Source of the DNA: Veronia nyctiphanis
GTDB lineage: Bacteria > Pseudomonadota > Gammaproteobacteria > Enterobacterales > Vibrionaceae
NCBI RefSeq assembly: GCF_004116385.1
Contig: NZ_PEIB01000011.1
Span: 79,451 to 143,450, forward strand
Direction of reading: 5' to 3'
Length of the DNA: 64,000 nucleotides
The translations under genes were made by a program, and so were the position numbers. Each line of letters starts with the position of its first letter. Within the stretch, counting starts at the first letter, position 1. The notes under the pieces are model-generated. The model did no database searches. It saw nothing but the letters and a program-made list of their open reading frames with translations, and had not been told where the DNA came from. Shown here piece by piece: positions 5,514 to 64,000 of this stretch.

Positions 5514-6895
5514 ATGCAAGACCATAGAATAGAAAAAGACAGTATGGGCGACGTTCATGTTCCCGCTGATGCGCTTTATCAAGCCCAGACTCAAAGAGCT
5601 GTTGATAACTTCACAGTGAGTAGCCTGACAATGCCGTCTCAGTTTATCAAGCGCTGGTGACAATTAAGCACGCTGCTGCGTTGGCAAACGCAAAGTTAGG
5701 CCTGCTTGATGGCAACATTGCCAATGCGATAGCGGAAAGTTGCCAGTTACTGCTTGAAAGTGATTTTGAAAAACAGTTCCCGGTCGATGTTTTCCAGACG
5801 GGTTCAGGCACAAGCTCTAATATGAACGCTAATGAGGTTATCGCCACATTAGCGAGTGCCAAACTTGGCGAGCCTGTCAGCCCCAATGACCATGTGAATA
5901 TGGGTCAGAGCAGTAATGACGTTATCCCTACCGCGATCCAAGTGTCATCTGCTGTCGCGGTATACGAACAATTATTGCCTGCGTTGAGACATTTAAGTGA
6001 GCAGCTTAAAATAAAAAGCGACGACTTGAACGATGTTGTGAAAACAGGTCGCACACACCTCATGGATGCGATGCCAGTTACCTTTGGGCAAGAGCTTCGC
6101 GGCTGGCAGTCACAAATTGAAGCAGCTATGGCAGGCATAGATAATAGTCTCGGCCAAGTACAAGCATTGGCACAAGGTGGCACGGCCGTTGGCACTGGCA
6201 TTAATGCCCACAGCGACTTTGCTGCTCTGTTCGCGCAAGAGATGACTGCGCTGACAAGTGTCAGTTTCCAACCAAGCCAAGACTTTTTCTATAATTTGTC
6301 AACCCAGGATGCCATTGTGGCGCTATCTGGTCAGCTGAAAACGCTGTCAGTCGCATTGATGAAGGTATCTAACGACTTGCGTTGGATGAATTCAGGCCCT
6401 CTCGCAGGATTAGGTGAGATTGAGCTAAAAGCGCTGCAACCCGGATCGTCAATTATGCCGGGTAAAGTAAACCCAGTGATCCCTGAGGCTGTTGCAATGA
6501 CGTGCGCACAGGTTATCGGTAACGACACGACTATCACTATTGCTGGCCAGTCAGGTAACTTTCAGCTAAACGTTATGCTCCCTGTCGTCGCTTTCAATAT
6601 TATTCAAAGCATCGAGATCCTAGCTAATAGTTCGAGCTTGTTAGCGGACAAAGCCATCTCTTCATTCGTCGTTCGTAAAGATAACCTTGATGCAGCGCTG
6701 TCAAAAAACCCGATTCTGGTGACAGCGTTGAACCCAGTAATTGGTTACCTTAAAGCGGCGGAGGTTGCTAAAAAAGCCTATAAAGAGCAACGACCTATCA
6801 TCGATGTCGCGGAAGAGGAAACAGACCTGGGTCGTTCAGAGCTTGAACGTCTTCTTAACCCCAGAAAACTCACTCAAGGCGGTATTGCAGACTAA
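5514..6895 (+). CDS. fumC: Fumarate hydratase class II (FumC), interrupted by one frame change
   Basis: An iron-independent fumarase that interconverts fumarate and malate. Translation starts at 5514 (MQDHRIEKDSMGDVHVPADA), runs to about 5651 and meets TGA. The protein continues at once in the next frame with VTIKHAAALANAKLGLL. A single G lost from AAGGCG would restore 460 residues, the normal length. Signature motifs are present: TGSGTSSNMNANEV, GQSSNDVIPTA, KTGRTHLMDAMP and GSSIMPGKVNPV, the class II lyase signature. A Fur box upstream of the linked small gene fits the known swap to FumC when iron-sulphur fumarases fail. The frame change is probably a base-call error. Confidence 0.9.
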
Positions 6896-6918
6896 TCGGC
6901 TTGTTTTTATGAAACTAA

Positions 6919-6945
6919 AAAGGCAGCGAGAAGCTGCCTTTTTCT
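6919..6945 (+). terminator. Rho-independent terminator after fumC
   Basis: A 9-bp stem AAAGGCAGC/GCTGCCTTT with a 5-nt loop and a following T run. It lies between the convergent fumC and SnoaL-like genes and could serve both strands. Confidence 0.85.
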
Positions 6946-6954
6946 GTTTTTGCC

Positions 6955-7425
6955 TTATTTACCCCAAAATGCATCTTCTGCTTTTTGGTCTTCTGAGAAC
7001 AACCATACTTCAACAATCTTGCCATCTTTTATCTTAAACAGATCGTGGCCTGTCATGTCGATGCTTGTATTGCCTTTTTTACCGCTAAACGCTACTTCAA
7101 CGGACACCAAGTTACCGTTAGCCATCACGTCACCATTTTGTTTAACGACGAATGTTCCCTGCGTGTCCTGCATCATTCCACCAATCATCTGGCCGATAAC
7201 TCTGAATCCATTTTTTGCACCCGAGTACTTATTTTTTCCCGGCTGATGCCAAACCACATTCTCTGCAAAAAAACCAGCAAACGTTTCCATGTCACCAGCG
7301 GCTAGAGAAGAAAAATAGGCCTCAATCATTTTAATATTGTCGTTTTCATGGCCGTGATGAGCTGCCGTCGCGTTAGCTGAAAAAGTGATAAGTAACGCCA
7401 TCATTATATTTTTTAGTGTGTTCAT
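6955..7425 (-). CDS. Secreted SnoaL/NTF2-like protein
   Basis: A 156-residue protein with a Sec signal peptide (MNTLKNIMMALLITFSANATA, cleaved before AHHGHEN). The mature part is a cone-shaped SnoaL/ketosteroid-isomerase-like fold. IKMIEAYFSSLAAGDMETFAGFFAENVVWHQPG is the usual N-terminal helix pair and strand, and HDLFKIKDGKIVEVWLFSED the closing strands. Such proteins are often annotated 'nuclear transport factor 2 family' with no known activity. The ATG at 7425 follows GGGAATC. The site may bind a small hydrophobic ligand. The real job is unknown. Confidence 0.75.
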   Translation of the reverse strand: MNTLKNIMMALLITFSANATAAHHGHENDNIKMIEAYFSSLAAGDMETFAGFFAENVVWHQPGKNKYSGAKNGFRVIGQMIGGMMQDTQGTFVVKQNGDVMANGNLVSVEVAFSGKKGNTSIDMTGHDLFKIKDGKIVEVWLFSEDQKAEDAFWGK

Positions 7426-61419: not shown

Positions 61420-61435
61420 TTTATGGAGGTATGAC

Positions 61436-63209
61436 ATGTATATATCAAATAAAAGAAAATTAATTTTCATAATAAGCGCTGTTGTATTAATTTTAATTAT
61501 CCTTTTTATCAATAATGGAAAGAAATTAGAAGAAAAAGTCCGGATAGAGAGAATAGAGAACAAACATACAATCCCAAACGAAAAATAATCAGAGCAAGAA
61601 AAAGGTATATGAGTCTTATCTGGTTGAAGTAACAAGTAATAATTCCAATTTACCTAAAGAAATAAAATATACTTTTCATATCAAAAAACCGCTATTTTTA
61701 GCGCCTAGAGAAAATACTTTTGATATCTACATTGAGCCAATGATAACAAACAATACTGAATCACAGTTAATCTCGAGTGTGGCGCACATAAAAGCAAAAT
61801 GGAGCATAAATGGTTATTTGAAAAAGACAGACTGGAACAATCTTCATCAGAAACATCCTGCTAGGAACTTTGAAAGAGTACTACAACTTTTAAGTAGTGA
61901 TGTGAAAAATAAAGTTGTACGTTTTGGCGATAGCAATACTGCGTTCTATTCAAAATATGAATACTCAAAGATCTCACAAAATGAGATAGGCCGAAAACTG
62001 ATAGAAGTTTACCCAAAGCCAGCCTATCAAACTGAAAGTTGGCAGCTTTTTGTGACTAACGTAGCTGATATGACTTCAATTGAATCAATGTACTACACCG
62101 TTTCTCAGGGCCAAGCCAACTTGGGTGACGGACGTTTTACACAGCCAGTAGATGCGGAGATGAAGTTAAGCAGAATTTCAGTCGATCCTAAACAGTTACA
62201 ATTTAATTTAGATGGAAATAGGTTAGCTAACGCTGAAATTGAACGCTTGATATTACATACAACAAAAAGGCAGATTGCATCAATGAATTCCATCGAGGAT
62301 GTCGCGAATAAACTCGATATCGCACTCAACAACTACGACATAAACGCTCTGGCAGGTTTACCCCAGTATCTTTTTGAAAATTTTAGCTATGACGAGATCA
62401 TTCAGTATATTGACTCTCTGACAGATGAGCAGCAAAGCGCACTTTTTGGAGCGTTAGGTGAGTTCCAGCATCAAGATACTGAACCCTTCTTATCGAAAAT
62501 TATAAATGACGCAAACGCAAGGTACAGTAACGTCTTCCGTTCAGTTTTTGCGATGGGCTCACTCAAGGAACCTACTCACATATCAGTTGAAGCATTAGGC
62601 TACCTGAGTAACGATTTTTCGACAGAAGAGTTAAGCCTAAATTACAACTCACTAGTGCAACTTGGTCGATTATTCGGGAAAGTAGATAAACAACAACATG
62701 ATGTAATTAAAGAGTCGATAGAGAAGTTTCAGGCCTCAACAGAGCTTAATTCACAAGACAAACAGCAGATAGTATTTCACGCAATGGCTGCGACAAACTC
62801 ACCCGATTATCTGCAACCTACGATAGAGCAAATCCAATACACAGGTGATAAAGCACTTGATCGATACACCAGAGCAGCTGCCGTAAAAGTGATTACTAAT
62901 CAGGCAAGTATCGGAAATATTGAAGCCTTACAGACCATTAAGACAATGATCTCAACTGAGGCACAATCCGAAGTGCTCGAAAGCTTGACTGAAGTTTTCC
63001 ACAACAAGTCTCTACCAGATGAAGTAAGAGAAAACCTAATATCGCGCGCTGATGACCCGGAAAGTAAAGATCTGAAGCAAACGATTTTGCTAGTCTTAGC
63101 GGGTACACCCGAACGGTGTAAAAATAACCATAATTATTTATTGTCTAATATGAGTGAACTTCCAAACGAAACCATCAACCTAATCCAAGGCCTGTGCCAA
63201 AATTTATAA
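61436..63209 (+). CDS. Membrane-anchored helical-repeat protein of unknown function, one frame change
   Basis: Starts MYISNKRKLIFIISAVVLIL, one N-terminal anchor, with GGAGGT before the ATG. After NKHTIPNE an extra A in an A run (about 61584) shifts the frame; the next frame continues VYESYLVEVTSNNSNLPKEI and is open for the rest, giving about 590 residues. The first 200 outside residues look beta-rich. From about 210 on it is helical with HEAT-like pairs (NDANARYSNVFRSVFAMGSL, DYLQPTIEQIQYTGDKALDR, RYTRAAAVKVI). Two Cys near the end (ERCKNNH, GLCQNL). An N-terminal sheet followed by a helical superhelix recalls vitellogenin-type lipid-transfer proteins, but this is only shape-level inference. 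Confidence 0.6.
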
Positions 63210-63335
63210 CTCATCAAAATTATTAGAATTAATGATGGATCCATATGGTGCCATCATTAATTTATATGGGCGCATATTCAATATTTTATACTTTACTTAT
63301 AAATAATTTAGCTAGAGAATTTATCCACTTCCCCG

Positions 63336-64000
63336 TTAACGAGACAACGAATAACTAGAGATTTCCAGTCTCCGTCGGTATTCAGCCGGCGGAAAGTTTC
63401 CTAAACATTCGTGCGTCCGTTCTTCGTTGTAATCAAGCATCCAGATCCATGCCATGTCTCGTACTTGCTCAAGAGACTTGAATAGATAAGCATTCAGAAA
63501 CTCCCGGCGGAACGAACCGTTGAAACGTTCCACAACGCCGTTTTGCTGAGGCTTACCGGGTTCGATATAGATCAGCTCAATATCATGTGTTTCGCACCAG
63601 TTGTGCAGAGATACGTTCTGGGTCATTGTCAACGCGAAGTTGTTTAGGCAAACCTCGCTCCTCTTTTAGGTATTCTAGAGTTCGCACTACTCGTCCAGCC
63701 GGGAGCGATGTATCCACTTCGATAGCCAGGCATTCCCGTGTGGCTTCATCTTCAACATTCAGGGTACCAAATCGCTTCCCGCAGTACAGCGTGCCATGCA
63801 TGAAGTCCAGTGCCCACTGGTGATTTTGCGCCATCACCACCGCCAACGGTTTCGCTGCTCGCTGAGGTAAAACACGTTTTTTGACGCCGCTTTAGGTTCA
63901 GGCCCATTCGGCAGTAAACTCGCTTGTGATTGAAGCTGAGCCCCGTGTATCGCATGCGTCCATAACACTTCCAGAAGCCTGCCTGCGGGGACTTGCTCAA
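63336..64000 (-). pseudogene. IS3-family transposase OrfB, broken and cut by window edge
   Basis: The fragment at the edge, QAGFWKCYGRMRYTGLSFNH, is the HTH_21 linker of IS3 OrfB. Then an extra A in a run near 63880 changes frame to NHQWALDFMHGTLYCGKRFG and the first DDE Asp region; VDNDPE is where the second Asp (usually DNGPE) sits. After ISAQLV the frame changes again near 63597 and resumes WCETHDIELIYIEPGKPQQN (the DDE Glu follows: VVERFNGSFRREFL). This second break would need about eight bases, so it is probably a real lesion. The C-terminus ...PPAEYRRRL is intact. Confidence 0.8.
63336..64000 (-). mobile_element. IS3-family insertion sequence, right part only
   Basis: The element enters from the window edge and its transposase reads back toward the repeat-protein gene. 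The terminal inverted repeat should lie in about 63300-63335 but I could not identify it without the other end. The 5' half of the IS (orfA and start of orfB) is outside the window. Confidence 0.7.

Follow-up and report, generated by a model that had tools for sequence, protein, structure and literature searches.

Genes and frame changes of the window

The window analyzed here, 64,000 nucleotides of Veronia nyctiphanis, covers the final 64 kb of contig C13 (143,450 bases) in a draft genome (G000) of 5.29 Mb, 127 contigs and 95.5% completeness. Among its genes are those for a class II fumarase (fumC), an 8-oxoguanine deaminase, a diguanylate cyclase, chitinases of the GH19 and GH18 families and the glycolate oxidase cluster glcDEF, and the coding sequence of each of these is interrupted by one or more single-base frame changes (Table 1). 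Our subject is the distribution of these interruptions in the window and the wider genome, and the process that gave rise to them.

As the principal comparator we used a genome of the same genus (G001), taken as that of Veronia pacifica, the other named species of Veronia besides V. nyctiphanis, since the GH18 chitinase encoded there agrees at 847 of 847 residues with a database protein so named. The segment G001:C3:25001-125000 holds a region collinear with the window, and open reading frames (ORFs) from it were compared with the window by frameshift-aware protein-to-DNA alignment, with conserved codons demanded on both flanks of an event. The glycolate oxidase genes glcE and glcF were not found in the collinear part of the V. 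pacifica genome; the glc genes were tested against 80 loci kept from a glcD search that confirmed 590. A protein search with the GH18 chitinase piece returned no second copy of the species among the best 120 of 236 matches, the closest of which showed 52-56% identity.

The frame changes listed in the original prediction are real, 15 of the 17 positions being net -1 changes when aligned with relatives. It had spoken of at least sixteen loci; many loci are indeed affected, and its list resolves into 17 positions in 14 genes. Twelve of these were recovered within 40 bases in the V. pacifica comparison, and one additional net -1 event, the third in the 8-oxoguanine deaminase gene, was missing from the list. 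The change placed at 45525 is likewise a net -1 event in a small protein gene, with its site nearer 45488. An upstream frame change at 26418, in the alpha/beta hydrolase gene, is plausible only, and that at 27470, in the GH19 chitinase gene, is probable. In all, 13 losses were accepted, and no gain, over 37,817 coding bases compared with V. pacifica, in keeping with the net -1 direction that had been predicted, and 11 of the 42 comparable genes in the window are affected. No in-frame nonsense codon was flagged in these comparable genes. Four weak calls in the window (three gains and one loss) were discarded, being sited at the ends of reference ORFs.

Table 1. Frame changes in the window, with the site obtained from alignment where one was obtained
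Gene	Event	Range	Strand	Site	Evidence
fumC (class II fumarase)	net -1, at about codon 46	5640..5660	+	5649	V. pacifica alignment; family from the relative's ORF
DUF3088 protein	net -1	12165..12185	-	12175	V. pacifica alignment; Pfam DUF3088 in the relative
D-threonine/3-hydroxy-aspartate aldolase-type gene (Ala_racemase_N + D-ser_dehydrat)	net -1	14475..14495	+	14483	V. pacifica alignment
8-oxoguanine deaminase gene	two net -1	15518..15555	+	15525, 15548	V. pacifica alignment; NF006055 in the relative
8-oxoguanine deaminase gene	third net -1, near C-terminus	16326..16346	+	16336	V. pacifica alignment
batA-type gene (VWA domain)	net -1	19351..19375	+	19361	V. pacifica alignment
Alpha/beta hydrolase gene	possible net -1, N-terminus	26397..26470	+		three-frame translation; main ORF matches Abhydrolase
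GH19 chitinase gene	probable net -1, C-terminus	27460..27480	-		five residues (two identical) plus a stop in another frame at the corresponding position
GH19 chitinase gene	net -1, near N-terminus	28845..28865	-	28855	V. pacifica alignment
Diguanylate cyclase gene	net -1	32755..32775	-	32764	V. pacifica alignment
DUF3429 protein	net -1	40532..40552	-	40541	V. pacifica alignment; family match
Small protein gene without family match	net -1	45478..45530	-	45488	V. pacifica alignment
GH18 chitinase gene	net -1	48095..48125	-	48105	V. pacifica alignment; V. pacifica protein intact, 847 residues
glcE	net -1	56698..56720	+	near 56708	62/62 loci with a glcE-like ORF at low frameshift penalty; 24/80 under a stricter rule
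glcE	second net -1	57450..57485	+	near 57460	58/62 loci at low frameshift penalty; 0/80 under a stricter rule
glcF	net -1	57860..57880	+	near 57870	71/80 loci, these being every locus whose ORF alignment spans the site
M14/AstE-type gene	net -1	59347..59367	+	59357	V. pacifica alignment; also 4/80 loci; Pfam

Losses across the genome and in essential genes

The comparison was carried beyond the window by setting the 415-kb contig C1 of the same assembly against the collinear 288-kb contig C2 of V. pacifica; the remaining contigs were sampled at single genes. Two genomes from another genus of Vibrionaceae (G007 and G016), compared in both directions, served as the control pair, and V. pacifica was itself examined in the reverse direction. 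Of the candidate events, a first rule excluded 4 from the window, 31 from C1, 7 from V. pacifica C3 and 37 from V. pacifica C2 (duplicates unmerged), along with 0 and 5 in the controls. A strict rule then removed 0 of 13, 7 of 59, 0 of 1 and 6 of 13 events, respectively, and 1 of 2 and 0 of 0 in the controls.

On C1, where 193,873 coding bases were compared, 49 losses and 3 gains remain under the strict rule. For the window and C1 combined, the compared coding sequence comes to 232 kb and contains 62 losses of a single base, with 3 doubtful gains, a rate of 2.7 losses per 10 kb. The reverse test of V. pacifica covered 228,587 bases and gave 6 losses and 2 gains, so that losses are about ten times less frequent there than in the window genome, and the control pair gave no loss and one doubtful gain in 149,713 bases. 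A looser rule, based on non-overlapping reference ORFs, was also applied. Of the comparable genes, 45 of 201 are affected on C1 and 0 of 76 in each direction of the control pair. Under the looser rule C1 shows 54 losses, 5 gains and nine flagged in-frame stops; judged by position, these stops probably reflect upstream extensions of ORFs, the counterpart of a break in V. pacifica, or short unannotated ORFs. V. pacifica C2 gave 6 losses, 8 gains and 14 stops under the same rule, several of which mirror breaks in the reference ORFs of the window genome. The losses along C1 show no significant clustering (chi-squared 19.1, 13 degrees of freedom), and the first, middle and last thirds of genes hold 19, 23 and 20 of the 62 losses.

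Conservation does not fall away beyond the breaks: across the 62 losses, mean identity is 0.818 over the 20 codons upstream and 0.817 over the 20 downstream. This equality, together with the absence of any nonsense codon in the window, is unlike pseudogene decay. Early genome decay would make the interrupted genes genuine pseudogenes under recently weakened selection, and about a quarter of the comparable genes being hit, in the window as on C1, would accord with it. Pseudogene formation in host-restricted bacteria is similar in that many genes are interrupted by small lesions. However, decay is expected to bring gains, nonsense codons and lowered downstream identity, of which the window shows no accepted gain and no nonsense codon; and, unlike in the host-restricted cases, core genes are hit and conservation is not relaxed.

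Three genes of the transcription and replication machinery are split. In a whole-genome family search, rpoC was matched at a single locus, on contig C43, as two pieces that overlap and lie in different frames; a single base is missing at codon 686 of 1404 (about base 60284 of the contig), and 20 of 20 codons match V. pacifica on both flanks. The genes dnaE and dnaX are likewise each divided into two such pieces and carry one loss apiece, dnaE at codon 819 of 1159, about base 12833 of contig C39 (19 of 20 and 18 of 20 flanking codons matching V. pacifica) and dnaX at codon 75 of 741, about base 61449 of C1 (20 of 20 and 15 of 20); the other dnaX matches in the genome are weak paralogues. All three genes are whole in both V. 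pacifica and G007. Viability of the cell requires RpoC, DnaE and DnaX, and that such essential genes are not spared further speaks against decay, which we regard as highly improbable. Other split genes on C1 include sdhB, sucA, sucC, pgm, asnB, dinG, yoaA, znuC, mepM, purU and mobA, where NCBIfam supplied names for 37 of the 44 corresponding V. pacifica ORFs.

The cell might also be supposed to read through the frame changes, whether by programmed frameshifting or a general tolerance: the next frame keeps conserved motifs, such that a full protein could in principle be made, and E. coli dnaX does use programmed frameshifting, at a place far downstream of codon 75. Against this, the sites are scattered over unrelated genes and unrelated codons, and the V. 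pacifica reference ORFs are open across them, with rpoC, dnaE and dnaX whole in G007 too. We give read-through next to no credence. The low rank that the original prediction had assigned to both early decay and frameshift tolerance agrees with the split essential genes, the scatter of unrelated sites and the lack of nonsense codons in the window.

Two separate observations concern related genes. V. pacifica has a second dnaE-type polymerase gene (G001:C19:70544-73445) that lies in two pieces, in different frames by their coordinates, and both Veronia genomes have a second, divergent cysS (G000:C92:2541-3878 and G001:C41:34282-35616).

Lost bases and the source of the breaks

As the lost base is often ambiguous at a given site, we estimated its spectrum for the population of losses. 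The models used 59 of the 62 losses, leaving out three genes with drug-transport-like or ribosome-protection-like family names that are still counted elsewhere. A first classifier, trained on 2,500 simulated deletions in C1 genes divided into five classes (cross-validated accuracy 0.65) and corrected for class prevalence, placed 86% of the losses in G/C runs of at least two (bootstrap 74-95%), 7% at single G/C and about 6% at A/T. The expectation for random bases is 18% in G/C runs of at least two, and the highest of 300 null draws reached 46%. A second fit by run length (accuracy 0.72) gave 11% at single G/C, 42% in runs of two, 42% in runs of three and 5% in runs of at least four, with A/T at 0% (0-3%). 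The earlier claim that the changes sit at short G or C runs is hence borne out by the calibrated classifier as a statement about the population, and not site by site.

Two other estimators were not retained. An expectation-maximization estimate, which put about 59 of 59 losses in G/C runs, was discarded because simulated random deletions also gave 31-55 of 59. A mixture model was set aside as poorly calibrated; its likelihood-ratio score was 0.544 for the data, against a maximum of 0.338 for random deletions (300 draws) and of -0.172 for A/T-run deletions, and the observed value falls below the 0.674-0.902 (5-95%) of pure G/C-run deletions.

The run-length spectrum bears on a further alternative, viz., a mutator strain in which replication slips in homopolymers, since the losses are indeed located in runs. 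Replication slippage, however, rises steeply with run length, affects A/T runs too and proceeds in both directions. The 2,574 A/T runs of at least four bases in the compared sequence hold about 2% of the losses (0-6%), and G/C runs of at least four about 5%. We therefore consider a mutator exceedingly improbable.

Taken together, the one-sided losses across the genome, the split rpoC, dnaE and dnaX, the steady conservation downstream, the absence from the window of nonsense codons and accepted gains, and a base spectrum foreign to slippage lead us to conclude that the breaks are almost certainly errors of the assembly consensus and not mutations in the bacterium. Error in base calling or consensus had been put forward in the original prediction as the simplest explanation, and the one-sided losses, the split essential genes and the equal flanking identities uphold it. 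On a flow-based sequencer, most reads of one orientation would at times under-call the signal from GG/CC or GGG/CCC, and where under-called reads dominate the assembler would write the run one base short; on this account the reads would be strand-asymmetric and the genes presumably intact in the living cell.

A platform of this type is Ion Torrent, which we regard as the probable source. Bragg et al. (2013; PMC3623719) describe, for the Personal Genome Machine (PGM), strand-asymmetric high-frequency insertions and deletions (indels) that are dominated by C/G deletions, with 82% in homopolymers of two to three. Errors of this class are carried by reads of one orientation and for the most part do not recur in a second run. 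The window genome resembles this class in losing single C/G bases mostly in runs of two to three (84% as against 82%). PGM high-frequency indels of all kinds occur once per 1000-2000 bases, compared with the 2.7 losses per 10 kb of compared coding consensus here, and give frame shifts in assemblies (PMC3623719). Ion Torrent under-calls in Listeria, as described in a comparison with Illumina (PMC12046094), are similar in being mostly deletions and in giving assembly frame shifts. More generally, among genomes that RefSeq excludes on account of many frameshifted proteins, more than 50% come from Ion Torrent/Proton (PMC7604302).

The structure of the assembly helps to distinguish among platforms. 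A full 23S gene, matched over the full Rfam model, stands alone on a contig of 3,025 bases, and the smallest contigs include pieces of 727-876 bases. The lone 23S contig and the contigs below 900 bases suggest that the assembly was built from short reads. An alternative source is a long-read platform (PacBio continuous long reads or unpolished nanopore) or another sequencer instead of Ion Torrent. Consensus error from such a source would accord with the one-sided losses, and unpolished long-read assemblies have deletion-dominated consensus errors in G/C runs; but long reads should cross an rRNA operon, and they fit poorly with 127 contigs, the smallest pieces and the isolated 23S gene. We consider this source possible, though doubtful. 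The Veronia type strains are kept at the CIAD Mazatlan laboratory. The same laboratory sequenced another vibrio on the PGM, in 120 contigs (PMC3622966), which is circumstantial only.

Several points weigh against consensus error, or against Ion Torrent as its source. In the PGM paper, the strand-asymmetric class makes up just 7.4% of the tested indel sites; 29% of all high-frequency indels lie in homopolymers, with A/T insertions common; and insertions outnumber deletions in raw reads (PMC3623719). The window genome differs from that wider class in that A/T insertions are not seen, and our preference for Ion Torrent is a modest one, given how small a share of the PGM errors belongs to the class that fits. 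In the Listeria data, the affected homopolymers average 5.5 bases and adenine leads (PMC12046094), unlike the runs of two to three G or C here. No single site is proven to be an error. The two classifier fits disagree on A/T losses (about 6% and 0%), their accuracies are just 0.65 and 0.72, and both were trained on C1 only. In the search for 23S, scores were obtained for 10 of 79 candidates and three other genomes yielded no 23S, which limits what it says of copy number. Among the essential genes, rpoB is whole, though this is expected by chance at the observed loss rate; a separate contig of the assembly holds a more distant member of the dnaE family; and cysS, although split, was dropped from the argument, as an intact second copy lies on contig C92. 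The first 40 kb of C1 (22 kb compared) is without any loss. The three C1 gains are doubtful, one lying in a repetitive part of tolA, one ahead of a likely start codon and one in a poorly conserved ORF.

Finally, the errors might be linked to the template itself, if a DNA modification on G/C doublets in Veronia made a semiconductor sequencer drop a base. This we think very unlikely; were it true, the error map of the assembly would be the footprint of an undescribed modification system.

Consequences for the assembly and neighboring features

The frame changes are an artefact, and their value lies in the caution they urge on users of this assembly and, less strongly, of the V. pacifica genome. 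About a fifth to a quarter of the comparable genes in the assembly look broken, core enzymes included, and anyone who concluded from it that this species has lost genes or pathways, or has pseudogenes, would likely be mistaken. Extrapolating from 62 losses per 232 kb, more than 1,000 coding positions are likely to be affected genome-wide. In the V. pacifica genome events of the same kind are about ten times rarer, and comparable caution is advisable there.

Several minor observations accompany these results. Both Veronia genomes carry an interrupted fumC, with different codons affected (5649 in the window; about 46996 on G001:C3). The glcDEF cluster (window 55069-58852; L115 about 6762-9179) is flanked by genes at 53717-54877 and 59000-59913, whose relatives adjoin one another in V. 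pacifica; this adjacency suggests that glcDEF was either gained in the window genome or lost in V. pacifica. Three tRNA genes were found on C1, and two tRNA-Ser(GGA) genes lie about 1.1 kb apart there (G000:C1, L135:7035-7122 and 8121-8208). Lastly, a perfect hexamer repeat (21396-21471; period 6, 12.7 copies) lies inside the ORF at 20081-21979 of the window, and two further genomes of the family contain a 100% match to its 76 bases.

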